This document shows, in pieces, positions 1 through 38,700 of a stretch of DNA of 64,000 nucleotides. A program made the translations under genes and the position numbers. How positions within the stretch are numbered: the stretch's first letter is position 1; each line of letters starts with the position of its first letter. The DNA comes from Prorocentrum cordatum (Eukaryota > Sar > Dinophyceae > Prorocentrales > Prorocentraceae): contig CAUYUJ010003438.1 in assembly GCA_963575745.1 (NCBI GenBank), forward strand, positions 1-64,000, given 5' to 3'. The notes beneath the pieces were generated by a model. The model made no database searches. It was given only the letters and a program-made list of their open reading frames with translations, and was not told the origin of the DNA.

Positions 1-99
1 TCGGATAGAGGTCGGTGGTGAACTGGAGTGCCAGGCGGGCTCCCCCGCAAACTCGATGGCGTGCCCGGTGGCATCATGCCCAAAAGAGCTGTACCATGC

Positions 100-777
100 T
101 CAGCTCTGGCCGCAGCCATTCGCTCCATGAGAGTGCCATTCGTGGCAGGCCGACCAGGGAGTCCCGAATGGAGACTGCACTGGCGTTGTCGCCACTGGGG
201 TCATGCCCCTCGGTGTGTGCATGCTGTGCGAGGGGCTCCCTGGCATCTGCTCGAATCGAGCGGGCCCTCCAAAGATGCGGCCGAACGTTTGCGGGTCTCC
301 CTGCGGCTCGGGCATGTCGCTCCTGAGTCCATTAACGGGCAGGTTTCCCTGCGCGCCCTGGCGGTTGCGCGTCACCATGGCGGACATAGCTCCCTGGCCT
401 GCGGCCCAGGGATCTTGTTGGCACAGTCTGTCCGCTAGCTGTTCCACCTGCTCAGGGTTTAGAGCAGCCACAATCTGATCCAGATCTGAGGTGCTGAGGA
501 CCTGCCAAGATATGGCACTAGGCCCTTGGCTTGGAGCACGGCTTGGAGCCGCACTCCCCGCCTCATTCGTTAACATGAGGATCTGGTGGGTCTCGGGCTG
601 GTTTCCCAGCACTGTTGGGTTGTAGTGGTCCCCCAACTCTCTCTGACAACAAGCCGTAGGAGGCTCATCATCACGCCAGAGAGACATTCTGTACCCAATA
701 CTCGCATTGCCCACCGTTTTCCATCTGCTTGGTGCCGTCATCGCGGCAGTGGAACAGCGTGCACGGCGACTACCCAA
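100..777 (-). CDS. Unknown ORF downstream of the Tpt1-like domain
   Basis: A 225-residue frame in the same phase as the Tpt1-like frame, separated from it by a TGA at about 793. It contains a short helical stretch around 405-500 (Leu/Gln/Glu-rich) and G-N-x-P peptides from hairpins at 339-352 and 597-610. No domain recognised. It may be the continuation of the polyprotein beyond a nonsense mutation, leading toward parts outside the window. Confidence 0.35.
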   Translation of the reverse strand: MGSRRARCSTAAMTAPSRWKTVGNASIGYRMSLWRDDEPPTACCQRELGDHYNPTVLGNQPETHQILMLTNEAGSAAPSRAPSQGPSAISWQVLSTSDLDQIVAALNPEQVEQLADRLCQQDPWAAGQGAMSAMVTRNRQGAQGNLPVNGLRSDMPEPQGDPQTFGRIFGGPARFEQMPGSPSHSMHTPRGMTPVATTPVQSPFGTPWSACHEWHSHGANGCGQS

Positions 778-792
778 GTAGTGTGGGTTTTG

Positions 793-1500
793 TCACTGTT
801 TACCTGTGGAGATCTCCTCCACGTAGTTGATATAATACGGCTCAATAATGCCGTCGACCCCTCCCGATAACAGCACCCCGTTGTCGGACCAGCTGAACTC
901 GATTCCGTCCTTCGAAGCCTGGTGCCAGTCCACCGAGATGATGATCTCGGAATCAGGGTCCCATCCACTCTGCACGTCACGACGCTGAAGCGTTGGAACA
1001 AGGTGGATGCGTGAACGGCCAGTCCCTTTCTTCTTGGTGTTGTGCTCTCTGCGGCAGGAAAAGCCTATCCACATGATGCCCTCAAAGGCTGCCCACCGTG
1101 TGCCGTGAATGGCAACGTCGGGGTACGGGGCCGGTCTCCCGGCAGGATTGTCGTGCAGTACAATGTACTTGTACAGCGACCAAGGGGCCTTGAGCGTCCA
1201 CGAGTGCCCCTGCGAAGCACGGATGAACAAATCGGCCGTGCCAGAATCTCGCATCAGGACCTTGAACTGCAGACGCTGCTTCTCCTCACCGTCCGCCTCG
1301 CGGACGTGGACGATCGCCATCATGATGGCAGCCATCTGGTCGACCGTTCTGTCGTAAAAGGTCCCGGCGATGATCTTGGCATCGTCGTACTTCGGGTTGT
1401 GCCCGTCATGCCGCGTACCGTCGTTCCAGGGGAACTCGTTTACGAGCTCGTGGAGGTTGATCCATCCATCGTGGTCGTCGAACGTCCTCAGCCTCCACAC
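793..1500 (-). CDS. Tpt1/KptA-like RNA 2'-phosphotransferase domain
   Basis: The family transfers a 2'-phosphate from spliced RNA to NAD+. Visible family features in order: a DGWINLHELV segment (residues 11-20) matching the N-terminal lobe, IRASQGHS (93-100) matching the RAxQGHS signature, IHGT (131-134) matching the substrate HGT motif, an Arg/His segment R-R-E-H then R-I-H-L (150-167), and SDNGVLLSGG (205-214) matching the C-terminal SxNGVxLxxG motif. The opening LSxxLRH motif is in the preceding frame. Residues 120-124 come from a member of the hairpin family inserted just before the HGT motif. The domain is fused to, or co-transcribed with, a Gag-like region. Activity of this copy is doubtful because of the frame break. 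Confidence 0.72.
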   Translation of the reverse strand: MWRLRTFDDHDGWINLHELVNEFPWNDGTRHDGHNPKYDDAKIIAGTFYDRTVDQMAAIMMAIVHVREADGEEKQRLQFKVLMRDSGTADLFIRASQGHSWTLKAPWSLYKYIVLHDNPAGRPAPYPDVAIHGTRWAAFEGIMWIGFSCRREHNTKKKGTGRSRIHLVPTLQRRDVQSGWDPDSEIIISVDWHQASKDGIEFSWSDNGVLLSGGVDGIIEPYYINYVEEISTGKQ

Positions 1501-2483
1501 TGGATTGTTCGGTCTGTCAGCGCGTGCCTACAGATCTTGCTAAGGCACTTTCTGAGCTGCTTCAGCTTGTAGTTCGTGCTAGGAATGATGTTCTTCTGCC
1601 TGCAGCTCTCCATAAGCGCCTCGGCAACCGAACGCATCGGTGGAAGCTTCCGTAGAGCACGACGATCGTTGATCAACGCCTGGCTCCCGCTCGTGAAGGA
1701 GGTATCGCCTGGGTGGCGCAGCTTGTCCTCTGGTGGGTTTCCCCGCAATGGAGCCTCTGCCGCTGGCGAGGCTGCAGCTCCTGATGATGAGGATGCTGCG
1801 GCTGCAGCGCCTGGCGGGTTTCCCCGCGGTGTCTCTCGGCTGGCGCTGCTCCTAATCTTAAGCACCCAAGTACCCCGAGGCAAAGCACCCTCCTCGGGCG
1901 CCTTGGAGCGCGTCGCCACTGGCGAGGCCGGCGTAGGGGTATACCCTGTACGCTCGAAAGCCTTGGCCTTGCTGGTGATGGAGCCACTCCGGCTAGGCTG
2001 TCGCCTGCGGATCTCCAGGGTGTCCTGAGGCTGTTGCCTGGGGTCAGGTCTCTGCGCAGGCATTGCTCGAGTCGGTGACTGCGGCACTTCGGAGAGGGGC
2101 CTCCCAATCTGCACATCGAACCCGAGCTCCTCTGAGCGGGTAGAAACTTTCTGTCTTTCACCCGAAGGCGTCCTAGGTTCACGAGTCTCGCTTTTGGCCT
2201 TTGGGATCGTTGGGGGATTCTTTGCTTCAGCTTGTGACTCCAGCAGCATTCGGCGAGTTGCCTCGCGGGCGCGCTCTTCTGCCACTCGCTTGCGCTCTGT
2301 CTCTGCTGCGGCTCGTTGAACCTCATGCTCGTCGTCACTCGTCATCTCGAACGTTTGTGCCTGACTGGAGACACCAGGCGGGTTCCCCCGCGGAGATCGA
2401 GTCTCCTGAGCAGCAAGACTGCTGTGGCCCGCGGTTCCGAGACGGCGATTGATCGCATCGATCTCTTCTTGGGTCATAGGCAC
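1488..2483 (-). CDS. Linker ORF ending in the first motif of a Tpt1 domain
   Basis: This frame opens with an ATG at 2483. It has a charged Glu/Arg-rich coiled-coil-like stretch, then a Pro/Ser/Ala-rich region with repeated R-G-N-P-P peptides from hairpins at 1733-1746, 1814-1827 and 2378-2391. The last 25 residues contain LSKICRHAL, which matches the LSxxLRH motif that opens Tpt1/KptA RNA 2'-phosphotransferases. The rest of that domain continues in another phase at 1500, so the domain is split by a frame change near 1490-1500. Confidence 0.5.
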   Translation of the reverse strand: MPMTQEEIDAINRRLGTAGHSSLAAQETRSPRGNPPGVSSQAQTFEMTSDDEHEVQRAAAETERKRVAEERAREATRRMLLESQAEAKNPPTIPKAKSETREPRTPSGERQKVSTRSEELGFDVQIGRPLSEVPQSPTRAMPAQRPDPRQQPQDTLEIRRRQPSRSGSITSKAKAFERTGYTPTPASPVATRSKAPEEGALPRGTWVLKIRSSASRETPRGNPPGAAAAASSSSGAAASPAAEAPLRGNPPEDKLRHPGDTSFTSGSQALINDRRALRKLPPMRSVAEALMESCRQKNIIPSTNYKLKQLRKCLSKICRHALTDRTIQCGG

Positions 2484-2627
2484 AAGAGGTGGATGACCCT
2501 CCTTTGCAGGAGTGCGGCCCCTGTTCGGGCTTAAGACGTCATTGAGGCCTACAGGGCAACCAGGTCTGTGTTCCTGGAATGCCTGTGAGCACGGACCGCA
2601 GACAGCATTGGCCCTGTAGCGGCGGCG

Positions 2628-3575
2628 CTATTCGATGATGGCTCTCAGCTGTTTCCGCACTGCCTCTATCTCAGGACGTCGAATGTTCGTCGCGAGCTGA
2701 TAGCCACCCCGCATGGACCTGCCCTGGGCGCCCCTGTTGATCGGGTTGCCCTGTCCAAAAGCAGAGTGCTCACCCGTTTGGCGCCAAGAGTCGTTGTAGG
2801 CGAGCAGCTCCCCCCCCCGTCGAGCGGCATGCTCTGATGGGGCTGCTTGCCTCCATTCACGCGGGGGCCGTCCCTGGGAGTGCGGATCGCCCCTAAGACG
2901 CGGATGTGAGCGAGACCTCCTGGCCTGTTCATCGGATGATGCTGCTGACATATCCTGAGCAGGAGCTGACGGGGTTTCCTGGGTAGGCGTAGGCAGCGCA
3001 TCCTGGGCAGGCAGGTCTATCTGCTGACTGGAGTCTGGCATGATTGGCTCTTGTGCGGATGGTTGTGCGCCAGGACTGTCTGGGTCGAAGTCCACCTCCT
3101 CGTCTTCGCCATTGACGTCCATCATGAGGATGGTGGCCTCGTCCTCGCACAATCCACATCCGTCATCATCTTCAACTTCTAAAGTAGGATTGTCAATGAC
3201 AATGGTCATTGGCCCAGCCGGGACGGGCAGGTTCCCCTGCTGTAGAGGCGTCTGAGCACCGCTAAGCTGGCCCGGCGCCGGCGGCGCGGAGGTCGGCCCA
3301 GGCTCGTTGCCGAGCACGGCGTGCGCTTCAAGCTGATCATCGTCATAGGAGGGCTGCCCGATGACGTTTCGCATGGCCGCATGGTTGGGCCGTAGCCCCA
3401 CCGCCTGGAGACCCCATCCCGGCGGAGGAAGCGCCTGTCCACGCATTGTGATAGCCCTCTCAAGGGCTTGGCGCCAACGCCCCTTTGCATACCATGTGTC
3501 GCTGCACGTCGTCAAGGAGCACGCTGTCGATGAGAGCGAGGGCCGCCAGGAGCAATTCCGAGTCGTCACAGACAT
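2628..3575 (-). CDS. Unknown acidic, low-complexity protein segment
   Basis: A 315-residue frame in the same phase as the Gag-like block. It is rich in Pro, Ala, Gln, Asp and Glu, with an acidic stretch near the middle (around 3060-3200) and an Arg-rich C-terminus ending at a TAG. G-N-x-P peptides are encoded by hairpins at 3227-3240 and 3302-3315. No enzyme motif was seen. Its position between Gag-like and Tpt1-like regions suggests a linker or accessory part of the same element. Confidence 0.4.
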   Translation of the reverse strand: MSVTTRNCSWRPSLSSTACSLTTCSDTWYAKGRWRQALERAITMRGQALPPPGWGLQAVGLRPNHAAMRNVIGQPSYDDDQLEAHAVLGNEPGPTSAPPAPGQLSGAQTPLQQGNLPVPAGPMTIVIDNPTLEVEDDDGCGLCEDEATILMMDVNGEDEEVDFDPDSPGAQPSAQEPIMPDSSQQIDLPAQDALPTPTQETPSAPAQDMSAASSDEQARRSRSHPRLRGDPHSQGRPPREWRQAAPSEHAARRGGELLAYNDSWRQTGEHSAFGQGNPINRGAQGRSMRGGYQLATNIRRPEIEAVRKQLRAIIE

Positions 3576-3933
3576 CGGAGTCTTGCAGCATCATGTGGCC
3601 GCTCTCGACGCTCTGTTGACTATCAGGATACTCTTCGGCTTGAGCGGCGTGCATCTGCATGGGGGCCTGCAAAACCGTGCATGGTCCGTACCCACCCAGC
3701 GCGAGCATACCAGGTGGCTCGCGAGGATTGCCCGGCACGCCCACGGTGAAGGCTTGAGCCTCCAATTCCATCAATTCGCAATAGTTCGGCGGATACACTG
3801 GAGTAGGCCTGTTTCCAGGCACGAGGTCAGATTGCCGTCGAAGATTGTGCTCGACCTCCGAAGGTGAGGCCTCAACAGTGACGTCCTCGTCGCTGCTCTC
3901 GTAGGCCATGATGTTACCTGGATTGCCGAACAT
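3460..3933 (-). CDS. Linker segment after Gag-like region (frame changed)
   Basis: This 157-residue frame follows the zinc-knuckle protein in a different phase. It is acidic and proline-rich, carries G-N-x-P peptides from hairpins at 3807-3820 and 3956-3969, and has no domain I recognise. It overlaps the end of the upstream frame by about 160 bases and the start of the next by about 115, which fits a chain broken by small indels. It could instead be a separate small ORF. Confidence 0.35.
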   Translation of the reverse strand: MFGNPGNIMAYESSDEDVTVEASPSEVEHNLRRQSDLVPGNRPTPVYPPNYCELMELEAQAFTVGVPGNPREPPGMLALGGYGPCTVLQAPMQMHAAQAEEYPDSQQSVESGHMMLQDSDVCDDSELLLAALALIDSVLLDDVQRHMVCKGALAPSP

Positions 3934-5966
3934 CCAGTCGAAGAAAGAAAAAGGGGCTGGTTTCCCAGCGTTCCGTTTTCCACAGGCGTGAGCTCGATGG
4001 GTCCGAAGATGAACCTGCGGAGGTACTCGAGGTAGTACACGTAGAGCCCGTGGCCGTGCGCCTCGATCTCGTCCAGAGTGTCCATGTTACTGACCCAAGT
4101 GTAAAACATCTGATCCACAGCCTCGAAGTCTTGGAGGCTCAGATACTCAATAGCAGGTTCACTTGAGTCTAGATGGACTTCGGACGATCTACCCTTTCCA
4201 TTCCCCTTCACTGGACAATCCTGTACAAGGTGATCGGCACTTTCACATTCATGGCACTTCAAGATCTGGCCGTCTCTACCTCGCGGGTTCCCCCGCCGAC
4301 CATTGCCTTTGCCTGAGGTTTCCCTACGGCCTTTTCCACGGCCTTTTTCCCCGAAGAATATCTCATCATACTGATCATCCGAAAACCTCTGGAGGAAAGC
4401 CGTAATGCCTCGTCCGTTCAACCTTCGACGACCCCGTTTGCCTTTGCCTTTTCCTTTGAAGCTCCTCCGTATCCTCCTAACACGACGCACTGGTTTTCGT
4501 GTAAACCTCCTCCACCTACGCTTCGCTTGTTGTGACAACCAAAACAGATGCTCAGCGCGCTGATTAGCACCTTCCATTTGCATAATATCTGACCAGTCTA
4601 GCGGTTCGATGCCATCTGGTGATATCGTGTCGGCGTCGGTGCCTGAGTCGAAACCGTCGTTACCTAGGTAGGTGGCTACGCCGTCGTTTAGGGGGTTCGC
4701 TTCTCCCCATAGAGAGCGGGGAGGCTGAGGTTCTCTAGGAGGAGGGCTGGTTGCCCAGCTTGGTTGCGATCGATCCCCAACTAGTAGGGCAGTAGATTCG
4801 CCAGGATCGTCGGCCCATATGTTTGCGGGCCCGTTGCCAGGCTGAGCTTCAGAGGTTAAGGCAGTATAACAATTTCCATTGCCAGTTCCCCTTCCCCTTC
4901 CAAACACTGATCCTATGTTACCAGGAGACCGTTCTGACAAATGGCCGATCGAGCGCATCCTCTCACACAGTTCTTCATACTGTTGTTGTGTTCGGGGCAT
5001 TTGGTGGTTGAGTGGTTGTAAGAGTTGCATGGCTCGCTGGTTGCCAACGCCTAGGGCGCGGAATATGATGGTCGTAAGCAATTGGAAGTTGGGAAGGTCA
5101 AAGCCCACCGATTGTGCCTCGAGACGGGCCATTTCGAACCGAGTGAGGGTTACGTCGATTCGTTCTCCGTGAGGCACATGAAAGTCGATGAGCTGAGCGC
5201 CTGAGGTGAGCTGACGCTGATCTTCCAGGCGTTCGAACTTCATGTTCAGGAGGAGCATAATATATGTTACTGGGTCGGTGTGGACACCGTCGATGTCCGC
5301 ACCATAGTTTATGATGTCAGGTGGTACCCTCATGGCGAGTGTCCTCGCGAGGCCGCCCTGGCCGCGTTGTATGGCGGCTGCTAGGGCTTGTGGCGTCATG
5401 CGTCCACTCGCGACGTTAAGCCACGCGTTGACCTCGTAGACGTACTCGCGAAAGAGTACGTTGCCTTGGGGGCCCCAGTATGGGCCATGTGTTTGCCCAT
5501 CGGTGCTATTATCTCCTCGGCGCATGTGTCCGATTGCCGCCCCCAGCGCAAACCATATAATGGCGAAGATAACCAACCCTAGGCTGTGGAGGTATGGGTG
5601 GTTATCGGGCGCGTTGCCGCGCTGGGGTAGGGCTTGTAGCGCCTTGTCAAGCCTACGAGGCGCTTTATCTTGCGGGTCTCCCCGCCTACGCTTCAAGTAC
5701 TTCGGTTTTGGCTCGTTGCCGAGCGGTTGGTGGTAGCGTAGTGATGAAGCGTATATGGTACCAACGTTGTTGTCTAGACGTCGTACCTCTCGTGTTGCTT
5801 CTTGCTCTTGAATTGATCCTCGTAAATGTCGGTGGAGTGGTGGCGCAGGGTAGAGATTGGTCACGAGGATCGTGCCGTGTAGCGCGAGGATAAGAAGAGC
5901 AAGAGCTGACCACACGAGAGTGCGGCCAGCTCCGCTACCAAGTCTGAAATGACTCTGGTAGGTCAT
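3771..5966 (-). CDS. Gag-like protein with two membrane segments and a CCHC zinc knuckle
   Basis: The frame is open from 6110, but its first codons lie in the leader remnant and the first ATG with a plausible N-terminus is at 5966. From that Met, residues about 17-36 and 129-147 are strongly hydrophobic and look like membrane segments. A helical region follows whose pattern resembles the Gag core of Ty1/copia elements. A very basic Arg/Lys stretch precedes a zinc knuckle of form C-x2-C-x4-H-x4-C at about 4209-4254. Short G-N-x-P peptides recur and are encoded by the hairpin family described separately. The reading continues in another frame after about 3.9 kb. Nucleic-acid packaging is inferred from the knuckle. 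Membrane segments at the N-terminus are odd for a Gag. Confidence 0.6.
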   Translation of the reverse strand: MTYQSHFRLGSGAGRTLVWSALALLILALHGTILVTNLYPAPPLHRHLRGSIQEQEATREVRRLDNNVGTIYASSLRYHQPLGNEPKPKYLKRRRGDPQDKAPRRLDKALQALPQRGNAPDNHPYLHSLGLVIFAIIWFALGAAIGHMRRGDNSTDGQTHGPYWGPQGNVLFREYVYEVNAWLNVASGRMTPQALAAAIQRGQGGLARTLAMRVPPDIINYGADIDGVHTDPVTYIMLLLNMKFERLEDQRQLTSGAQLIDFHVPHGERIDVTLTRFEMARLEAQSVGFDLPNFQLLTTIIFRALGVGNQRAMQLLQPLNHQMPRTQQQYEELCERMRSIGHLSERSPGNIGSVFGRGRGTGNGNCYTALTSEAQPGNGPANIWADDPGESTALLVGDRSQPSWATSPPPREPQPPRSLWGEANPLNDGVATYLGNDGFDSGTDADTISPDGIEPLDWSDIMQMEGANQRAEHLFWLSQQAKRRWRRFTRKPVRRVRRIRRSFKGKGKGKRGRRRLNGRGITAFLQRFSDDQYDEIFFGEKGRGKGRRETSGKGNGRRGNPRGRDGQILKCHECESADHLVQDCPVKGNGKGRSSEVHLDSSEPAIEYLSLQDFEAVDQMFYTWVSNMDTLDEIEAHGHGLYVYYLEYLRRFIFGPIELTPVENGTLGNQPLFLSSTGCSAIQVTSWPTRAATRTSLLRPHLRRSSTIFDGNLTSCLETGLLQCIRRTIAN

Positions 5967-6100
5967 ATTGCATCCAATTCCATGTCGAAGGAATACGATA
6001 TGGGGTGTGGATGAGTAAGATAGAATAAGATCGATGTAATGATCTTTCCAACACATAGCGAATACCAAGTCAGGTATCCGGGCAAATTGGGCGCGCGTGC

Positions 6101-6121
6101 CTTGAGCCAAAAGGCAGCGAC
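6101..6121 (-). other. Relict dinoflagellate spliced leader
   Basis: On the minus strand this reads GTCGCTGCC followed by TTTTGGCTCAAG. The canonical dinoflagellate spliced leader ends in GCCATTTTGGCTCAAG, so the last 12 bases match exactly and GCC matches after loss of one A. It lies at the 5' edge of the minus-strand coding block and points in the same direction. Genomic leader remnants are known marks of trans-spliced mRNAs that were reverse transcribed and reinserted. Confidence 0.75.
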
Positions 6122-6759
6122 GCGCAGGCTATACTCCCGATTATCTATAACATCTCCCAAAGAACTACCCTTAAAGTCGAAACACATGCGCAGCAACGAT
6201 CATAAAACAAAACCCATCAGGCAACAGGGCAAGAACAGGAAATTACGAAACACAAGCATCACATGGCACCAACAGTGGAGCACAACCCATCGATCACCAA
6301 ATCAAGAACCATACACCCGCAGTCACGAAAGCAGCATCGGGCACCTGTCATAGCGCACAACACATCAGGACAACAACGAAACACACGCAGCAACCACTAC
6401 CGGTCATATGGCACCAGCCAGGCAAGACCATGAATTAGAGTCCCCATGGAAACGACGAGAAATATGCATGAACTAATTCATCATGGGGCACCAGCTACAG
6501 AACACCACCCACAAAATAGCGAGGCAAGACCAAGAAAGCATCGCAAGGATTAACGCAACCTAGGCCACTAGCCACACAGCACCATACACTACAGCGCATG
6601 GACCAGCAGGGCGAGCCAAACAGCACCGCCCATAGCACAACAGCGCATGACCGCACACGTGCAACCACCAACACATCATAGAGCGCTGGACATAACGCAC
6701 CATTAGAGCACGAACAAATGATTAGTCTGGCGAAGGGCCCAACCATACGCAATTGTGAC
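6122..6759. other. Spacer without recognised gene
   Basis: A purine-rich plus-strand spacer with loosely recurring phrases such as GGCACCA and GAGCACAA. Similar phrasing reappears at 8640-9350, so the two stretches flanking the tandem array may be remnants of one sequence family. No coding exon or structured RNA was seen. Confidence 0.5.
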
Positions 6760-8470
6760 TACCGTCGTTGTCGGTATCGCCTTCGGTGGATCTCCTTATG
6801 GGGCACGAAACGTGTGACTGGGTAGTCGAAGCCAATCTGGCGCCAATCTGGCAGGCCCAATCTGGCAAACGGGGGCAATCTGGCGAGGGAGCCAAGGCGA
6901 ATCCAGTCTGGCGAATAACCCAAATCATCCAGTTTGGCCGGGCCAGATTGGCCCTTGGGGTCCAATCCAATCTGACAGTCTGGCCTTCGACTACCCAGTG
7001 TGAAGAGTGTGCCGCTTACGGCGGGGTCGCCATGCGGGCGCTGCTACTGGGGCTTGATGTGGAGCTCCATTTATGGGGCCACAGCACGTGTGAGGGTGTG
7101 CCGAAATGGGGCGGGGACGCCATGCGGACGCTGCCACTGGGGCCTTCGGTGAAGCCCCCTAAGGGGCCACGAAACGTGTGAGGGAAGAGCGGCGATGATG
7201 GCGATGAAGAACGATGCGCAGGACCTTAGATGGAGCTCCCTACATGGGGCCACGAAACGTTCGAGGGCTGTGCCAAAATGGGGCGACGCCGCCACGCGAA
7301 CTGCGCCACTGGGACCTTAGGTGAAGCTCCATATGGGGCCACGAAGCGCGTGAAGGGTGTGCCAAAACGGGGCGGCGCCGCCATGCGGACTGCGCCAGTG
7401 GGACCTGCGGTGGAGCTCCCTATGGTGCCACGAAGCGTGTGAGAGGTGTACCAACACGGGGCGGCGCCGCCATGCGGACTGCGCCACTGGGACCTCAAGT
7501 TTAGCTTCATATGGGGCCGCGACGCGTGTAAGGGGTGTGCCAAAATGAGGCGGCGCCGCCATGCGAACTGCGCCACTCGAATCGTAGGTGGTGCCCCCTG
7601 TAGGGCCACGAAACGTGTGACGGGTTTTTGCCAAACTGGGGCGGCGTCGCCATGCAAACTGCGCCACTGGGACCTCAGGTGGAGCTCCCTATAGGGGGGC
7701 ACGAAACGTGCGATGGGTATACCGAAATGCGTCGGCGCCGCCATTCGGGCTGCGCCACTGGGACCTGAGGTGGAGCTCCCTGTGGGCCGCGAAGCGCGTG
7801 AGGGGTGTGCCGAAATGGGGCGGCACCGCCATGCGAACTGCGCCACTGGGACCTTAGGTGGAGCGCCCTGAGGCCAGGTATCGTGTGAGGAGTGTGCCAA
7901 AACGAGGCGGCGCCGCCATGCGAACTGCGCCACTAGGACCTTAGGTGGAGCCCCGTATGGAGCCACGAAACGTGCGAGGGGTATACCGAAATGGACGGCG
8001 CCGGCATGCGGCCTGCGCCAGTGGTGCTTTAGGCGGAACTCCCTGTGGGACCACGAAACGTGTGAGGGGTGTACCGAAATGGGGCGGCGCCGTCACGCGA
8101 ACTGCGCCACTGGGGCCTGCGGCGGAGCTCCCTATGGGGCCACGACACGTGTGAGGGGTGTGCCAAAATGGGGCGGCGCCGCCATGCGGGCTGCGCCACT
8201 GAGCATGGGGCGGTGCCGCCATGCGGGCTGCGCCACTGAGACCTTAGGTTGAGCTCCCTATGGGGCCACGAAACGTTTGACGTGTGTGTGTGTGCCAGAA
8301 TGAAGCGGCGCCGCTGTGCCACTGGATCCTCAGACATGATTCCCTATGGGGCCACGAAGCGTGTGAGGGGTGTGCCAACATGGGGCGGCGCCGCCATGCG
8401 AAATGCGCCACTGGGACTTTAGGTGGAGCTCCTTATGGGGCCACGAAACGTGTGAGGTGTGTGCCGAAGC
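6760..8470. repeat. ~90-bp tandem repeat array with GGCGGCGCCGCC palindrome core
   Basis: About fifteen units of 80-110 bp follow one another. Each contains a block like CCACGAAACGTGTGAGGGGT, then a palindromic GGCGGCGCCGCC core, then TGCGCCACTGGGACC and GTGGAGCTCCCTATGGGG. Divergence between units is modest, and unit lengths vary through small indels. Both strands show long open frames here that are by-products of the repeat. One early unit is interrupted by the MITE at 6817-6999. Confidence 0.85.
6817..6999. mobile_element. MITE with 15-bp perfect terminal inverted repeats
   Basis: ACTGGGTAGTCGAAG at 6817-6831 is matched by its exact reverse complement at 6985-6999. The 183-bp element lies inside a unit of the ~90-bp array: removing it together with one GTG joins ACGAAACGTGTG to AAGAGTGTGCC, restoring the repeat consensus, so GTG is a 3-bp target duplication. 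The interior holds several copies of CAATCTGGC. No coding capacity. Confidence 0.78.
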
Positions 8471-9588
8471 TGATGGCGATGGTGAGGACGATGATGAGGA
8501 TGATAGCATGATGATGATGACGACGATGCTGATGATGAGAATGACCACGCGAGGAGGGAGGAAAGGGGAGAAAAGAGGAGGAAGGAGGGACGCGGGGACC
8601 GTCTCTTCAAAACGAAAACCCAACACCACAAGATGGCTGGGGAAAAAACGCATACAGCACCAAGCACACTGCACCGCTCAGAAACACCATGACAAGAACG
8701 GGAACACCGCAACCAGAAAGGCATCATGTATATAGGACATCACCCACAGAGACAAAGACAAACGGACAAACTCGCACACGTGAGAACATCATAGCGCACC
8801 GACAATCTAGCACCAGCGATACTGCACCGAGGCGAAAACGATGTCATCGCAAAGCTGAAATACCCACATGACACGATATGCACAACCTGACAATTCAGTC
8901 AGCATGGCAAGAACGGCAAGTTCACAAACGCAGACAAAGGCATCATGGGAACACGCCATCGCGCATCACCCATGTCGTAATGCACCAAGGCAAAGACGAG
9001 ACGCCTCAACAAACACGGCATCAGATGGGCACAAACAGTAGAGCACCACCCGAAGGGCACCAATGCGACAACGCAAACATTTCAACAGTTCATGACTCAT
9101 GGGGAGCCAGCCATGCCGCACCGCCCAAAGAAGAGCAAAGCAGCAAGGATAACATTGCATCCAAGAAATCGTCAGAGGGCATCAATTTAGACCATCGCCC
9201 ATGGGGCATTACGGCAATAACGAGAACATCGGCACCACTACGGCACCATATGGCATCAGCCATGGGTCACCACGGCATCACCGATAAGGTACTAAGTCAC
9301 GAACGAGAAGCCCACAACAATTCTGCATCAACGCATAGTCGATCACAATAGAAGCAACAAGACATCATACAGCCTTAGCCGGCGAACTTTATAGCAATGA
9401 GGATAAATTTGCAACCCTTAAGATAAAGTGCACCACCAGCCACAGCATTATAAAACCAGGACCCGTCAGTGTAGGCATCTGTTTGGGGCGCAACGCAGTT
9501 CTGGTCGGGTACCCCTTGACTGTACGCTGCACGCGTGCTTCTTTCTGGATAGGTCTTCTTGTCTTCGCTGTGGCAGTTGTATCAACAG
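8471..9588. other. Spacer with short GAT-rich microsatellite; no gene recognised
   Basis: A GATGATGAC-type microsatellite (about 8480-8545) is followed by a purine-rich stretch with AGGAGG runs, then roughly 700 bp of sequence with scattered CATCA and GGCACC phrases like those at 6.2-6.7 kb. Reading frames are short or have no coding character. Confidence 0.45.
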
Positions 9589-16334: not shown

Positions 16335-16687
16335 GCCCCTCGGTGGTTCCTTCCATCTCCGCCCGCCTCTCGGCCCCGCACACGCGTCGATAATACCATG
16401 GCTTCAGCACTCAAACGCCGCGCCTCTGCAACAGCGCCGGTCGTTTCCCTTTTATCGTCCTCTAAGCGCGTGCCCCCAACGTGCACGCGCCGCCGGACAC
16501 TTTCGTCGAGGTCGTCGACGTCCACATCTTCGTCGCTGAACAAGACATCGTCGTGCTTCCTCCCAGCGTCATCCCCCTCGGGGCGCATGTCGACGACGCT
16601 CATGAAATTCTGCACATGCCTCTTCGATTCCTCAAGGAAGGCCGCCATCCAACCACTCACGTGCGGCTTGTGCCCGCGTCTTCTCAC
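16202..16687 (-). pseudogene. Acidic linker of Helitron polyprotein in shifted frame
   Basis: A 161-residue frame with MAAFLEESKRHVQNFMSVV followed by a run of Asp/Glu (DVLFSDEDVDVDD). It bridges the gap between the Rep-side and helicase-side blocks, which are in another phase. Two frame changes (near 16.65 and 16.35 kb) are therefore needed to read through. Confidence 0.45.
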
Positions 16688-20466: not shown

Positions 20467-23400
20467 TTAAAACGACATCAGATCGTTTGCCAAGCATCGC
20501 GCAGGCATCACTGGAACCATCGCGTGGGACGTTTCGTTCCACGCCCGCTTCGGAGTATCTATACCTTCGAAGCACTCCCAACATAACGGAACCTCGCATT
20601 GAGTACAGACTTCTCGCTTTGCCCGACATCCAGCACGGCGCCGCTGGTCCTCTGAACAACATATCAACTCCAGGTAGCCCCGAGGCACTCCAGTAGACGA
20701 CGCGCACCATGCATCCACCGTCCAGTCGTCAAACTCGTCGATGTGCTTCTGGAGGTCGAGTTTATCGTTCCCTTCTTCATACCTGCACCGGCTCAGGTAT
20801 GCCGTGAGACACAACTCCTGAGGCACCTCCCACATAGACCATGCTCCCATGTGCGTCAGTCCACTGCCATCCCGCGCATCGCTCTCAAACACTCGTTCCC
20901 ACGATATATCATTAGTTTTCCGCCCCGACACCCACGGAAACGAACAGCCGCACATGAAACACATCGGCGATGCTATCTTTTCCTGTGTCACTGTTTCTGC
21001 ATATGCTTTCAGACTTTTCCGGTGCGTCGCGTGCGACGATATTGGAGCTCCTTGCCGTGCGGCGTACGCGACGACTTCACTGTAAGCAGTGAGTTCTCGC
21101 TTGTGCAGCGAGTGCGCGGGCGAATACATGTCCGCGATCGGCTGCGCGACATCTCCGTGTGCTACGCAGACATGGTTCAGAAGCTCAGACTCGTCTACGC
21201 CTGTCCAGGGGCAACCTCGGAAAGCACAATGAGTTGGCGGCAGTTCCTTTGCGTCGTTCTCGACCAAAGCTGCCCCCCACGGTTCATTGGGGTCCTCTGG
21301 ATCCGCGGGCACAATAGGGATGTCCCGCAACAGCGTCGCTGCTGTTGCGACTGCTTCTTCCCGCGCCCGTCGGGGATCATTTGACGCTGGGTTGACGCGC
21401 GCTGCAAAGAACATCTCTTGCGTCGTATCCGCCTCTGGGACTGCACCCACTGCGGCACCACCCGGAACTGGCTTGTTGAGGTTGCTGGCTGTTGCTGCGC
21501 CCGCGGTCGTCCCAGCGCCTGCCTCGGTCTCGTTTCTGCACGACTGGCCACAAATCATGGACGCACAATGTGTGGGCTCTGTCGCGCTCGTTCTATACGA
21601 CTCGCAAAACGTTTCTTTCTGCTTCCCCCGGCGCCTCGTTTGCCTCACCCGCGCCCCCTCGGTGGCCCCTGCGCCCTCCTCCGGCTGAGGGTTCCCGACA
21701 GGAGCGCCATGCAAAGACGAAGACGCACCATGTACACCATCTCCCGCCCTCGATGGCGCGCGCGTTGATGTAGACTCTCTATCGACGCGGCCCACAGCCA
21801 TCTCGCTTTCCAGCGACGTTTTGACAGCACCGTCGTCGTCTACGGATTCTGCATGTCCACGGTTCGCTCCACCCAACTCGTGCGTAGCTTTTTCCGTGTC
21901 GGTTGTTGCTGGCGACATCGGGGGTCTGTCGCCAAACGACAGCGGCCCCTCCGTTGACGACGCGGCTTCCTTGGCGGCATCTGTCGGCGCGACTGCTTCC
22001 GTTCGGTTCCTGGAAAACACCACAAGGGCAATGTCTCTCTGATTCTTCGAGCTCTCTGCAAAGTCCTTGAACTCCATCCGCGCCACCACGTTGTCGTCGA
22101 ACCTGACGACACCAACGCCAGGGCAGTCGAAGGACGCGACGTAATGAGCTGGGTGCTCCAGATGGCAAATCGCGCCCTGGAACTGGTATGTCCAGCCCGA
22201 CGTGCCTGGCCACTCGAACGCCCTTGGGACGCTTACGCGGAAATTCACTCTAGTCATTCCGTCCGCCATTCTTCTGCTCAGGACCACAACGAGGAATCTG
22301 GCAGGTGTCTCCGATGGCACGCCGTGAGTTTGCGACGGGCCTGGGCACCCATGCCGCCCCTCTCCGTCTCGCAAGGCGGGTCGATGCGGGCATGGCAAAC
22401 CGTACTGGGCTCGGGCGGATTCCAACGCTACGAGATGCTCAAGACCAACTGGTCCCAACATGTCCGTATATTCCCACATCTGGATTACCATGGATCGTTC
22501 TCGTCTGTAAACATCCGACACCCAACCGGATCCGCCGCAGAACCGCCTTTGACGGATGGTGCTTGCCAGTATGGACCCGTATACTAGTGTGTAGTGCTGC
22601 GCCGGGATTCCCATGCCCGCCAACGCACTCGACTCTGCAGCACAGATAGCATCAACTGAGGCGCTCCACAGCTCGCTGGCGTCGCACTGGCGAGTGCTCC
22701 TAAAGTCATTAGTGCGACCGCGCTGGGACAACCCATCACGCACCGCTCGCACTCCTGGTACTTGATCGCTTTTATCCGCAGGAAGGTCACCCACGGCTGC
22801 GCCCATCAGATCCGCCTGCTGTGCCAACGCACACACACCGCATCGATGACGCCGTCGGACGCTGCATCCGCGTCGATGAAGCAACACCGCGTGCCGAATG
22901 AGTCCCAGACGCAGTAACACTTGCAATGCGGCGTTTGCAAAACACGAATTTCCGATGTTCGGCATTCCCTTTATCCGATGTTGAACGCACGCCCAGGCCC
23001 CGTCCTCCAGCATGACGTGAGCCGAGTCACCATACAACGCGGCCGCCAACTCTTCTTCTGACACAGCCGGTCGCACGAGCTCCAACAATGTGCTCTCGTT
23101 AGGGCTTTTCGCCAGAATGTGCTCCACGGTTGAGCCCCCTTCCGTATCGTGCCGCTCTTCCCCTGCCACATCGGCATTTTCACGTGCACCATCCGCGCAG
23201 GTTGGCAATGCCGGAGCGACATCGGACGATGGCACCGAGGTGCTACCTCGAACCGCAGAACGCAGCCACGGAGCATGGTCTGCTTCTCCCTCTACAGCGT
23301 CGCGCGTGAGCACATCTCCCCCGCTGACCACGCGAGCAACGTGTTTAGTAGACATCCATAGAACTGCTCCTGCGCACACGCCGTGTTTGTCGCCAAGCTT

Positions 23401-24453
23401 CCATCTATGCCGTGACGCGGCTGTCATTACGTCCTGCACATCCTTCGCTTCATACACCCACACAAACGCGCCCTCATCACACAGCCACGTCTGGACCGAT
23501 TGGAGATTTTGTGCCTCTATCGACTCGCGACTGCCACCCCCTGACGCCATGTCGCTGTTACACTCTGTTTCGAATCTTCTCAGTGCACGCCGGCGCCACC
23601 GCCCCCGACGCAGGTTCGCACACGCGACTTGTAAACATTTATTTGCACGGCGACCAATGCTTGATGCATCGCTTCCCAGTGCCACTGCCGACTCGCTCTC
23701 GCCACACTGGACATGAACGGGCTGCGCGACCTCGGACCGCGGTACCCACTCACCGAGAAGTGTTCTCCAGGCAACAGCACGTGCGTTCCGGCCGTGGGAC
23801 CAGTAAGCTGGGAGCGTTATGCTGTGGTGACGCTTCATGCCCACTCCTGGGAAACGGCTATGTGGGCGCAGCTTCGCGCACCCGGCTCTCTGCGCCCGCG
23901 CGTTGGATCCCTGGACGGCAGCACTGCGGGTACATATAAGAGTAGCTGTCCGCGCCAGGCCTAACAAGAACCTGGACGTTCGCACCGCGGCAAACCACGA
24001 AGCCATTGTGGTTTTCATTTGCCCTCTGGACAACGACGGCAACGCGAATTTGAAAATTGGCGAGAGTTTCCCCTTGCAGCAACGTCCATGCACGGACGCA
24101 TACGGCCGCTGTCGCGTCGGACACCATTTGCATGCCAGCGAACGCAAATTTCTCTGCGCACGGCGTAGACCACCCTGAAACGCAAATTTAAAAATTTGCA
24201 AGCGTTTCCCCCTTCTGTAAGTGCCACGTAGGAAGGGATGTAGGTGGCCTGGCGACCGCCACGCCCTGCGTAGAACACCCAGAAATGCAAATTTCAAAAA
24301 TTGCGAGCGTTTTCCCCCTTCTACGACATCCACGTAGCAAAGGATGAACACGCCGACGCGCCCGCCACACACGCCATGACCGAACGCGCCGCCTCCCACC
24401 GCGCACCATTTCGCACCGCCCCCACTCGCCGCCCTTCGGCGCATATCACCCAC
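20467..24453 (-). CDS. USP-like cysteine protease / zinc-finger N-terminal part of Helitron polyprotein
   Basis: The 1328-residue frame first runs through a short tandem repeat (24.0-24.35 kb) and probably starts further in. Near residue 495 is GMPNIGNSCFANAALQ, matching the ubiquitin-specific protease Cys box (GLxNLGNTCxxNxxLQ) with the nucleophile Cys present. About 60-100 residues on, QCDASELW resembles the QxDAxEF box. Near residue 770 HYVASFDCPG followed by VRFDDNVV matches the His box. The C-terminal third has a C-x4-C-x13-H-x4-H zinc finger, further CxxC pairs, and an AYxxxVAYAARQGAPI segment I recall from Helitron-like proteins of dinoflagellates. The frame stops at 20468, but related sequence continues in the same phase below it. 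Confidence 0.68.
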   Translation of the reverse strand: MGDMRRRAASGGGAKWCAVGGGAFGHGVCGGRVGVFILCYVDVVEGGKRSQFLKFAFLGVLRRAWRSPGHLHPFLRGTYRRGKRLQIFKFAFQGGLRRAQRNLRSLACKWCPTRQRPYASVHGRCCKGKLSPIFKFALPSLSRGQMKTTMASWFAAVRTSRFLLGLARTATLICTRSAAVQGSNARAQRAGCAKLRPHSRFPGVGMKRHHSITLPAYWSHGRNARAVAWRTLLGEWVPRSEVAQPVHVQCGESESAVALGSDASSIGRRANKCLQVACANLRRGRWRRRALRRFETECNSDMASGGGSRESIEAQNLQSVQTWLCDEGAFVWVYEAKDVQDVMTAASRHRWKLGDKHGVCAGAVLWMSTKHVARVVSGGDVLTRDAVEGEADHAPWLRSAVRGSTSVPSSDVAPALPTCADGARENADVAGEERHDTEGGSTVEHILAKSPNESTLLELVRPAVSEEELAAALYGDSAHVMLEDGAWACVQHRIKGMPNIGNSCFANAALQVLLRLGLIRHAVLLHRRGCSVRRRHRCGVCALAQQADLMGAAVGDLPADKSDQVPGVRAVRDGLSQRGRTNDFRSTRQCDASELWSASVDAICAAESSALAGMGIPAQHYTLVYGSILASTIRQRRFCGGSGWVSDVYRRERSMVIQMWEYTDMLGPVGLEHLVALESARAQYGLPCPHRPALRDGEGRHGCPGPSQTHGVPSETPARFLVVVLSRRMADGMTRVNFRVSVPRAFEWPGTSGWTYQFQGAICHLEHPAHYVASFDCPGVGVVRFDDNVVARMEFKDFAESSKNQRDIALVVFSRNRTEAVAPTDAAKEAASSTEGPLSFGDRPPMSPATTDTEKATHELGGANRGHAESVDDDGAVKTSLESEMAVGRVDRESTSTRAPSRAGDGVHGASSSLHGAPVGNPQPEEGAGATEGARVRQTRRRGKQKETFCESYRTSATEPTHCASMICGQSCRNETEAGAGTTAGAATASNLNKPVPGGAAVGAVPEADTTQEMFFAARVNPASNDPRRAREEAVATAATLLRDIPIVPADPEDPNEPWGAALVENDAKELPPTHCAFRGCPWTGVDESELLNHVCVAHGDVAQPIADMYSPAHSLHKRELTAYSEVVAYAARQGAPISSHATHRKSLKAYAETVTQEKIASPMCFMCGCSFPWVSGRKTNDISWERVFESDARDGSGLTHMGAWSMWEVPQELCLTAYLSRCRYEEGNDKLDLQKHIDEFDDWTVDAWCASSTGVPRGYLELICCSEDQRRRAGCRAKREVCTQCEVPLCWECFEGIDTPKRAWNETSHAMVPVMPARCLANDLMSF
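24030..24345. repeat. Three tandem ~115-bp units with an AAATTTxAAAATTxG palindromic core
   Basis: Three units each contain GCGAATTTGAAAATTGGCGA-like sequence followed by GTTTCCCCCTTCT and a variable GC-rich part. The middle one is a palindrome, GCAAATTTAAAAATTTGC at about 24182-24199. They sit at the presumed 5' end of the Helitron coding strand and extend its reading frame artificially. Confidence 0.65.
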
Positions 24454-35785: not shown

Positions 35786-38700
35786 TTAGCGCGGGGCACC
35801 AGGTGGAGCGCCGCGGAACGATGACAACATAGCTTGGATGTTGAGTGACGGCACGGCACCATCGGGCGAGGCCGTGAGCAGCTCGGCAAAGGCTCGCCCA
35901 GCGCTGTGGAGGCGCTGAAGTAGAGGGCCTTGACGAGCTTGGGCGGCGGCGAGGTCCGCGGCGAGAGCTAAGCACCTCTGCTGGAGGGCAGCCATAGCCT
36001 GTGACAGCTCGGTTTCACGGTCGGTGAGGGGAGGCTGCTCAGTGCCAGCAGCCGAGGGCCTCGAAACAGAGGCGAGGTCCTCGGTACGCCTGTCCAAATG
36101 GTGGACTAGCGTAATGCGGGACCCTGTACGCTGACGTCCGTCACCCTTGAAGGGTGGCTGGAGGGGCCGACGCGACCCCAGGGCTGGAGCCGCTAGGGCC
36201 ACGCCCCGAGAGGTCGGGAGAGCCGCTTCCTCTCGCTCAGCAACGATGGAAGCGTGGATGGGGCACGAGGGCCTGTCTGGTTTAGTACCCTGCGGGGGGG
36301 CTGAAGCCGCCCCCGCGGGCTGCCGGCGGTGGGGAGGCGGAGTGGTTTGCGCGGTGGGACCAGTCGTGATGCCGTGCAAGGGCTCTGAGGTCGGTCGCGT
36401 AGAAGGTTGGCGTCTCGGTAGGGCGGCATGGTCGGCAGCGTGTGGTATCGGCGGTGCGTCCTCCATGCCACTCAGTCCGCGGGGGTCACCCAGGTCATGG
36501 TCGGCGTCTTGGCGGTGGCCGTTATCATCGTATGTGGGCGATATCGCTCTCGGGGACGGAGTCGCAGTAGGGATCGAGAGGTTTCCCGACGGGGCGGGGT
36601 TTTCGCTGGCTGGTCCGTCGTCCAAAGCGTCCGATCCCCCACCGAAGCTGAACAGGTCATCCTCCTGTTCGTCAGCGTCTTGAAAAAGAGCGGCGTTGTC
36701 ATGTGGGTGCGCTGCCGCTCTCAATGGCGGAGTCGGGGGCGCCGTGCGGGTGCCCGACGAGGCAGGGTTTGCGCTGGCTGGCCCGTCGCCCAGGAAGTCC
36801 AGGCCCCCACCAAAGCCGAACGGGTCGTCCTCCTGTTCGTCGAATATCGCCCGTTGGGCCTCGGCCCAGAGCTCGTCCGGGTACTGTGGGATGTCTGGTC
36901 CAGCCGCGGGTGGTGCCTGGTCAGACAGCAGGGGATTTGGTTCCATTTTGTTTAGTTCCGCAGCTGTGAACCCAGCCCTGCGGTGTGGGAGGGGGAGTGT
37001 ACGATGTCTACGCTCGTAGATGGCGACAGCGACTCCGTGAAGCACGGTCGCTTGGCGATGTCGTGATTTGGCAGTTTCGACGATGTCGTCTGGAAGGTTA
37101 TGAGTACGTGCCGCCGCTGTGGCGAGGGCGTCAGCCTGACGATTGAACTCCTCCGCGATGGGCCCGATGAGCCCGAGGTCGATGCCCATGTCGCCCTGGT
37201 GGCTAGCGACTTTCTCGACGCGGAACATGGTGGGCTTGGCCATGACGCATCGGTGGATCTTTTCCCAGAGCTCCACGTGCGTGCCCTGCGGTGGTGAGTG
37301 TCCGTCGATGATCCTTTGGAAACCATCAACCACCGCCTGGTTGTCCACGAAAACGTGTACGGGCCGTTCAGCACATGCCGTGAGGTGGACAATGGCGAGG
37401 GTCTCCGCAAGTTGTGCGTTCTGCGTGATGCCGTGAACGCGTGCACTGTAGTTCATGCGGTGGTCGATGCCGTAGTAGACGCCGTAGCCCGCTCGTGCAA
37501 GCAATGGGATGGCTTGGTTGGTGCATGCACCGTCCGTGGCAGCGTAGACCCATGTCCAACCAGTGTCATGGTCAAGGTAGGTGGTGTAGGAGTCCTGGGA
37601 TGAAGCCGCAGGATCTCCCTCAGGTGGGGGCCGCGGTATGGGCTGAGGTAGCGGGTCCCTCGCGAGGTCGGCCTGCAGGTCGAGGAGGGCTGGGTCTTCA
37701 TCGAAGAGCCCGCAGTGTCTTGTGTGCGGTGGAAGGCGGGCCCACTGCTCGTCACTGATGAGGGTGGTAAGAGGGATTCTTTCTCGGGCCCAGCACTTGC
37801 AGTCGCGCACAGTGTGCTCCTGAGTTTCCTCTTCCTCGTCGCAGTATCGGCAGATGGGGCTGGGGTCAGCGGACGTGTTTGATCGGGATCGTCGCTGTTG
37901 GGTGTGGTCCCCGCCCGACAGGTAGGTAAGGAGGAGCGCCAGCTGCCATGCGTTGCATTTGGCTGCTCCTTTCGTTCGGGCGAGCCACGTGCTGGCGAAG
38001 AGGTCGAGGCCCTGTCTGACAGAGGCCAGGTGTCCAAGGTCATGGCGCCGTGGCTTGATTTTTCTCAGAAAGGCTCTGCGTTGTGAGGCTCGCAGCATGT
38101 GAAGGAAGGCGTTTTGGGGTAGGTTCAGCCAACTGATCTGACAGCCCCAGTCGTCGTACATGATGCCAAATGTGGGCCAGGTCCAAAGGAGCTGCTGAAG
38201 CGTCTGGACAAGTCGTCCTACAGGTCCTCCCCCGAAAAGGGTCTGGACATGGTGTTGGAGATCCCTGACGAGGCCGCAGAGAGTAGCGTCGCGGTTAACC
38301 TGTCGCCGCAGACACAGGAAGACTTCACGCTGCGTAATGGCGTCAATCTCCAGGGCGTGTCCTGGGACGCACACGGCCATGAGGGTCCAAAACTCGACCC
38401 ACCTGTTTCCATTGGGGCGGATAGCCGCCTTAAGGGCATGGTTGTAGGCAGTTTTGACGGGGCCTGATGGGGCTTGAATGTCGGTGCCCGTGGTGCAGAC
38501 GCTGGCAGCAAGGGAACGGGCGTGCCGCGCCTTAATAAGCATCGGTGATGGGAGCTTGCCAATGCGCGGCAGGCGACTAGTCGCCCTGCGAACACGGGCG
38601 TCAGCGGTGGCCGTGAGGTTAAGCGCGGCTGGAGCCGGCGTTGCCTCGGCGTTGATGTAACTCCCGACGAGCTTGAAGGAGTCGACCACGCGTAAGGGCC

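Follow-up and report, generated by a model that had tools for sequence, protein, structure and literature searches.

Why should the coding sequence of a retroelement be strewn with very small hairpins, and are they there as DNA, as RNA or for the peptides they encode? The question is raised by the first part of contig CAUYUJ010003438.1 of the dinoflagellate Prorocentrum cordatum (GenBank assembly GCA_963575745.1), of which we analysed positions 1 to 64,000 of the forward strand (the window; G+C 58.3%). The minus strand of its first ~6 kb carries the 5' part of a long terminal repeat (LTR)-type retroelement with a Gag-like protein and a Tpt1-type domain. There an earlier reading of the letters alone (the sequence-only reading) had reported a family of hairpins with covarying stems and GNRA-like loops (N, any base; R, purine), which it took for a structural unit inserted or selected repeatedly. 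Comparison with other copies of the element in the same genome demonstrates that the hairpins are selected as sense-strand RNA, and leads us to propose that they are read by a protein.

Hairpins in the window and chance expectation

Within window positions 1-5724 the pattern GCNNG-N4-CNNGC occurs 21 times, with 17 perfectly paired hairpins and eight distinct stems, rather than the fifteen hairpins and seven stems first reported, although the repeated presence of the pattern and the matching of each arm to its partner are as described. The other 58 kb of the window contain 68 occurrences, 6 of them perfect. The loop is GNRA on the minus (sense) strand in 15 of the 17 perfect hairpins (exceptions: GGAG at 35-48 and GACA at 5335-5348), which confirms the fixed loop class, and the remaining 58 kb have no perfect hairpin of this GNRA-loop class on either strand. 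A sixth stem pair is formed in none of these 17, and three more sites (291, 1733 and 4829) are short of one pair or wobbled. The hairpin sites of the window are listed below; intact counts refer to the other aligned copies of the element at that site (up to 17), with gapped copies given separately.

35-48, minus: GCGGG-GGAG-CCCGC, loop decayed from GNRA; GNRA-intact in 16/16 aligned others, 1 gapped
291-304, minus: GCAGG-GAGA-CCCGC, one A.C mismatch; full pairing in 2/13 aligned others, 4 gapped; most have A.C
339-352, minus: GCAGG-GAAA-CCTGC; intact 16/17
597-610, minus: GCTGG-GAAA-CCAGC; intact 17/17
1130-1143, minus: GCCGG-GAGA-CCGGC, within the Tpt1 domain, encodes AGRPA (phase 0); intact 13/16, 1 gapped
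1733-1746, minus: GCGGG-GAAA-CCCAC, decayed; intact 13/17
1814-1827, minus: GCGGG-GAAA-CCCGC; intact 16/17
2253-2266, minus: GCGAG-GCAA-CTCGC, encodes REATR (phase 1); intact 16/17
2378-2391, minus: GCGGG-GGAA-CCCGC, GCGAG/CTCGC in other subfamilies (compensatory change); intact 16/17
3011-3024, minus: GCAGA-TAGA-CCTGC, decayed; perfect in 17/20 copies (alignment column 4628)
3227-3240, minus: GCAGG-GGAA-CCTGC; intact 14/16, 1 gapped
3302-3315, minus: GCTCG-GCAA-CGAGC; intact 15/17
3807-3820, minus: GCCTG-GAAA-CAGGC; intact 13/15, 2 gapped
3956-3969, minus: GCTGG-GAAA-CCAGC; intact 16/17
4283-4296, minus: GCGGG-GGAA-CCCGC; intact 14/17
4746-4759, minus: GCTGG-GCAA-CCAGC, encodes SWATS (phase 1); intact 16/17
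4829-4842, minus: GCCTG-GCAA-CGGGC, U.G pair; intact 15/17; U.G in 19/20 copies, C-G in the remaining one
5335-5348, minus: GCGAG-GACA-CTCGC, GACA loop, encodes ARTLA, may be peptide-driven; identical in 15/18 copies
5609-5622, minus: GCGCG-GCAA-CGCGC; intact 13/17
5672-5685, minus: GCGGG-GAGA-CCCGC, GCGGA/TCCGC in other subfamilies (closing pair compensated); intact 16/17
5711-5724, minus: GCTCG-GCAA-CGAGC; intact 12/17

Protein-preserving synonymous shuffles of four coding segments (2000 runs) gave means of 1.15 perfect and 0.52 GNRA hairpins, with maxima of 5 and 4, compared with real counts of 16 and 14 in the same segments. Shuffling of codon order gave means of 0.23 and 0.01, respectively, and dinucleotide shuffles of positions 1-6110 (1000 runs) gave 0.26 and 0.008 against 17 and 15 in the real sequence. 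The sequence-only reading had named similar counts in shuffled sequences as what would speak against it, and none of these shuffles produced them.

The array across copies of the element

Using gag as a query against the host genome (4,128,499,153 bases in 21,875 contigs) we obtained at least 61 matches at 80-100% identity, counts that are lower bounds: 58 long matches, including the window's own and a few that look duplicated, and 3 short leading pieces. Twenty copies were fetched from the 58 long matches as 10-kb stretches; 18-copy analyses, in which pairwise identity goes down to 72%, leave out L021 and L027 because large parts of these fail to align. Of 32 hairpin sites, three with fewer than five intact copies (the A.C-pair site at window 291, a tandem duplicate in copy L026 and one at a ragged stretch end) were omitted from the diversity, branch-change and variant tallies. 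A copy on contig C16964 served as the reference for coordinates only.

The C16964 copy contains 37 hairpins (Watson-Crick or G.U pairs, GNRA loop) over 15.96 kb, with a mean spacing of 420 nt, ten inner stems, and loops of GAAA (24), GCAA (7), GAGA (4) and GTAA (2); the next base 3' of the hairpin is C in 33 of the 37. Across the 20 copies there are 10-25 perfect GNRA hairpins per copy on the sense strand, the lowest two being L021 and L027, which hold much unrelated sequence, whereas the antisense strand has none in any of the 21 sequences. The hairpins fall into 30 site clusters, 26 of which are perfect in 13-19 copies and four in 1 or 2. In a census of all 5-bp hairpins with loops of 3-6 nt, covering 376 positions, 25 of 28 hairpins of the GCNNG-GNRA type recur in 12 or more of the 18 copies, compared with 17 of 334 other stems. 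One relative of these hairpins, GCGGA-GCAA-TCCGC, closes with an A-U pair and is present in 16/18 copies (alignment column 11489), and two hairpins with GACA loops (L025 positions 9200 and 1472) both read ARTLA by eye.

The array also extends to a second subfamily, where the downstream part (9.0-14.6 kb) is 82.7% identical over 6152 positions and all 11 alignable reference hairpins are paired (G.U allowed) with a GNRA loop; three reference hairpins nearer the element end lie beyond the fetched stretch. Furthermore, two hairpins between the shared pol stop and the 3' repeat are intact in four of five copies, to which that stop is common, and both are damaged in the fifth. The two long frames of the reference copy hold 33 hairpins, of which 26 are in one phase and encode (L/R/P/Q/H)-G-(N/D)-x, four are in phase 0 (AGRPA, ARQRA, AGQPA, AGKPA) and three in phase 1 (SWATS, REATR, SGVTC), while a 34th hairpin of the phase listing sits in a shifted last part where its listed phase is not applicable. 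The single codon phase described for the window thus holds for most hairpins, but the other two phases also occur.

Selection on the hairpins as RNA

Pairwise diversity is 0.044 within the 15-nt unit (hairpin and 3' base) compared with 0.179 in its flanks, and at third codon positions it is 0.048 inside, 0.294 in the flanks and 0.314 elsewhere, about six times less inside. The drop spans exactly the first stem base to the 3' C (offsets 0 and 14), and the most variable base within it is the free loop base. As a control on site choice, 15 sites were set from the window alone and tested in nine copies of the other clade: identity was 95.7% at the 15-nt units and 74.7% elsewhere, with 87.0% as the best of 5000 random draws. 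In these control stems, two-base changes were still paired in 15/16 cases, single changes were pair-breaking in 5/6 with one giving G.U, and 111 cells were unchanged and 2 gapped.

Compensation is visible at individual sites. Window 2378 has GCGGG/CCCGC in nine copies, of which eight are perfect and one is decayed, and GCGAG/CTCGC in eleven; at window 5672 some copies close the stem with G-C and others with A-U; and GCAGG/CCTGC replaces GCGGG/CCCGC in some copies at window 35, where G.U intermediates also occur, and at another site farther downstream. Of 513 hairpin cells (9 gapped cells excluded), all five pairs are present in 485 and not in 28, and the paired cells comprise 396 with Watson-Crick pairs and a GNRA loop, 49 with G.U and GNRA, 39 with Watson-Crick pairs and a non-GNRA loop, and 1 with G.U and a non-GNRA loop. 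The covariation score on chosen variants (the 33 commonest of 86 distinct ones and 5 downstream ones) was 0.56, compared with 0.11 when shuffled, and none of 500 shuffles was as high; the corresponding figure of 98.9% paired is inflated, because the sample took the commonest variants.

Using a tree built without the hairpins, we found that stem changes keep pairing in 9/11 cases on internal branches and in 18/46 on terminal branches (Fisher p = 0.017), the nine comprising five double changes and four to G.U. We infer that internal branches represent copies that kept multiplying, and terminal ones mostly decay after insertion. Loop changes on internal branches were GNRA-to-GNRA in 15 cases, away from GNRA in 6 and back in 1.

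Because third positions are conserved, stems compensate, all three phases are used and two hairpins lie past the stop, the hairpins are selected as RNA and not for a peptide. The earlier suggestion that compensating stems with a fixed loop mark a repeatedly selected structural unit therefore stands, and paralogues with conserved peptides and uncompensated stems, which it had named as counting against it, were not what the copies displayed.

A proposed recognition signal on the genomic RNA

Fixed outer pairs, a fixed loop class and a fixed 3' base, combined with free inner pairs, give the unit the look of a protein recognition site on RNA. Our preferred interpretation, which we hold with about even confidence, is that together the hairpins form a cis-acting recognition signal dispersed along the genomic RNA, which Gag most probably binds in order to package it. 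The unit is a 15-nt RNA whose 5-bp stem has fixed outer G-C and C-G pairs, a nearly fixed closing G-C pair and, between them, two positions that vary but stay paired; a GNRA tetraloop caps the stem and a C follows on its 3' side. About 37 such units, one every ~420 nt, are spread from gag into the 3' untranslated region, and selection on the lineages that go on multiplying maintains them. A protein may read the loop together with the outer pairs, the likeliest candidate being the Gag of the element with its CCHC knuckle; the genomic RNA, long as it is, would then be recognised at many points, condensed, and packaged ahead of host RNA. Gag is the simplest candidate because it must pick its own RNA, has a CCHC knuckle, and dispersed viral stem-loops serve assembly. 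The dominant codon phase perhaps arose because G-N-x-P is tolerated in linkers.

A more ambitious version, which we offer tentatively and consider somewhat doubtful, is a genome-wide code in which ~37 interchangeable GNRA hairpins, each contacted weakly, allow Gag to distinguish long, intact genomic RNA from that of the host. Tpt1 might take part in the same step, removing 2'-phosphates that would otherwise block reverse transcription. A many-contact recognition code has been proposed for some RNA viruses, and to our knowledge none has been shown in any LTR element.

Several observations weigh against recognition by Gag at many sites. No hairpin lies in the 5' repeat or in the ~210 nt that follow it (in the C16964 copy the repeat ends at 892 and the first hairpin is at 1105), whereas in the LTR elements examined to date the principal packaging sequences are found close to the 5' end (PMC4974528, PMC11381356), although the review on yeast elements deems scattered sites likely contributors too (PMC4974528). 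Nor does their own context make the hairpins fold better: the probability of the weakest pair averages 0.76 in place (>0.5 in 29/37) compared with 0.84 for the same 14-mers at random element positions. Pairing is lost in two of the 11 stem changes on internal branches, the five double changes are from four sites, and window 291 keeps its A.C mismatch in most copies. Finally, the six internal-branch losses of GNRA are evidence against a strict need for the loop.

Alternative explanations

The strongest alternative, though an unlikely one, is that a host protein and not Gag reads the hairpins, for export, stability, localisation or escape from silencing. The evidence for RNA-level selection is equally compatible with such a reader. 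Host-type RNA signals, though, usually need one or few sites and not ~37, and the lack of perfect hairpins of this class on both strands of the other 58 kb of the window also counts against it.

Docking of the GNRA loops into receptors in the same long RNA, compacting it without a protein, seems improbable to us. Distribution of the hairpins over the whole element would suit such docking, as would the balance of internal-branch loop changes (15 within GNRA, 6 away, 1 back), but it leaves the conservation of the outer pairs and of the 3' C unexplained.

We give slightly less credit still to the unit acting as DNA or single-stranded cDNA, as a cruciform, recombination or template-switch site. 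The stem reads as a palindrome on either strand, purine loops can give stable hairpins in DNA, and the A.C mismatch at window 291 is G.T on the opposite strand. Against it stand the strand asymmetry of the loop in 21/21 sequences, the site at window 4829 that keeps U.G in 19/20 copies, and the internal changes, which make sense-strand G.U four times and A.C once, compared with 17 and 16 in terminal decay, small numbers in each case.

Spread of mobile palindromic insertions through the element, the Rickettsia-like alternative raised by the sequence-only reading, is very improbable, even though many copies of one pattern do stand in coding sequence, mostly in one phase. Most sites are common to copies, each keeps or compensates its own stem, and no precise hairpin-sized empty site was found among the copies compared. 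Absent or damaged hairpins instead reflect point changes or indels of 1 or 8 nt, 63-nt deletions that remove a hairpin in five related copies (L014, L018, L023, L025, L027) and a 399-nt deletion in L010, while a 15-nt loss in L020 removes just one hairpin base. The one gain, which can be counted in favour of mobility, is in L026, where a hairpin is present twice; because it came with a 27-nt tandem duplication, it does not represent a mobile unit. Recent mobility within the element family is thus ruled out by shared sites, the lack of hairpin-sized empty sites and site-specific stems, and the Rickettsia analogy fails here because sites are shared and no such empty site was seen. Within the family the insertion reading is wrong, and the reading of structure under selection is right.

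Among more distant proteins, P0001 (49% identity) has KGNPK aligned ungapped to RGNPR of window 4283, and P0003 has ERRKTPD aligned ungapped with window QRGNAPD; by eye, neither KGNPK nor ERRKTPD can encode the hairpin. P0001 contains AGQPA four times, although in its shuffled versions the full set of 25 phase-0 hairpin peptides comes to 0.04 on average (maximum 2); in this element family AGQPA is encoded by the hairpin at reference-copy position 9014. P0003 has no phase-0 hairpin peptide. P0001 seems to carry the pattern elsewhere, as putative hairpins at other places, which would favour mobility.

Least credible is a protein motif (G-N-x-P, e.g. a polyprotein cleavage site), which would account for the 26/33 hairpins in one phase but is ruled out as the cause of the whole array by the three phases, conservation at silent third positions, compensating stems and two hairpins past the last stop, and may hold for the two GACA-loop sites reading ARTLA.

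Relation to known systems

Dispersed RNA packaging signals have been described in single-stranded RNA viruses and in hepatitis B virus (parechovirus, PMC5431903; enterovirus-E, PMC7793301; hepatitis B virus, PMC7612645). These systems are similar to the present element in having many short stem-loops with a common motif along the genome. The element differs in being a cellular LTR-type one in which a single design, with its outer pairs fixed, its inner stem free and a loop of GNRA type, recurs ~37 times; its partner protein is putative. Ty1, Ty3 and retroviruses likewise have a Gag with an RNA-binding part (PMC4974528, PMC8096270, PMC11381356), and a purine-rich loop is bound by the Gag of mouse mammary tumour virus (PMC8096270), but their determinants lie mainly near the 5' end, whereas here the array spans gag, the pol-like part and the 3' region and spares the 5' repeat. 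Titles and abstract openings in the open-access literature gave no report of such an array in a retrotransposon.

We likewise know of no such hairpin array in any LTR element. The Rickettsia palindromic elements also lie within reading frames, but are much longer and mobile among unrelated genes, whereas the present units are of 15 nt at shared sites in one element family. The double-hairpin elements and GC clusters of organelles are also short, multicopy, G+C-rich hairpins; these are mostly intergenic and mobile, and are not known to combine a strand-bound GNRA loop with a place in coding sequence.

The array is a clear case of RNA structure selected at dozens of places inside retroelement coding sequence, and the many element copies are natural replicates that supply both compensatory changes and a control for neutral decay. 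Whether a genome is recognised at one site or at many is a debated question that becomes testable in a cellular element with 15-nt oligonucleotides. The array is also a ready marker by which relatives of the element can be sought in other algae with large genomes.

The element and its surroundings

The element is an LTR-type retrotransposon of ~16 kb with terminal repeats and a Gag with a CCHC knuckle. Its features in the window are as follows.

1-6176, minus: LTR-type retroelement, 5' part, truncated by the contig end at window position 1; 5' terminal repeat at 6176-5987
5987-6176, minus: 5' LTR, a terminal direct repeat matched in part, with 84% over 191 nt when compared with the 255-bp repeat of the C16964 copy
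3771-6110, minus: Gag-like open frame with one CCHC knuckle and two hydrophobic stretches; CCHC-type profile match below cut-off; three protein relatives at 47-51% identity
793-1500, minus: Tpt1/KptA RNA 2'-phosphotransferase domain (PF01885, E 6e-19)

The copy in the window is damaged: the minus-strand frames that encode its Gag-like protein with CCHC and its Tpt1 are shifted and interrupted by stops. In the C16964 copy, 255-bp direct repeats at 638-892 and 16340-16594 are 98.8% identical and 15.7 kb apart, with no target duplication seen by eye. Between them are a 2926-codon frame with CCHC, Tpt1 (PF01885, E 1.3e-24) and a RING finger, a second long frame downstream, and a frame-shifted last part, with motifs resembling integrase, reverse transcriptase and RNase H by eye (e.g. 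HVDDI), for which Pfam profiles gave no significant match in the pol-like part. The Gag knuckle, C-x2-C-x4-H-x4-C, was also read by eye (PF00098, E 0.002, below cut-off). An AlphaFold model of Gag (pLDDT 33) was unusable and set aside, and no solved structure was found to match the Gag profile or a 1493-residue pol-like piece. The patterns used found no relatives of the element in the viral_contigs and genome_contigs sets, and the window has no Rfam match at the gathering threshold and no match to the pattern of a dinoflagellate spliced leader (DinoSL) remnant.

The Tpt1 domain (window 793-1500; L025 frame residues 1548-1783) retains the Arg-His-Arg-Arg tetrad by eye, compared with PMC6333775. 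A Tpt1/KptA RNA 2'-phosphotransferase is thus encoded by a retroelement, with the RING finger further down the same frame. Its closest relatives (P0004-P0006, 85-87% identity) are labelled in EukProt as Pyramimonas sp., a green alga, reflecting either contamination or transfer between algae.

Just 5' of the 3' repeat, the sense strand carries a pyrimidine-rich tract, CTCCTCCCCTCCC, identical in 5/5 copies (L025, L032-L035), which occupies the place where a purine-rich primer tract would be expected. The 3' untranslated region, between the pol stop and the 3' repeat, also has longer inverted repeats, e.g. CAGTCTGG...CCAGACTG, which most of the same five copies retain. Upstream of the element, window 6782-8502 consists of ~89-nt tandem units; ~90-nt tandem units are also found inside the pol-like part of the C21533 copy (L031), with a 32-nt stretch in common with the window flank. 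Further along, window 20467-24453 and 35786-39646 hold long open frames with matches to UCH-type protease and RNase H, possibly further mobile elements.

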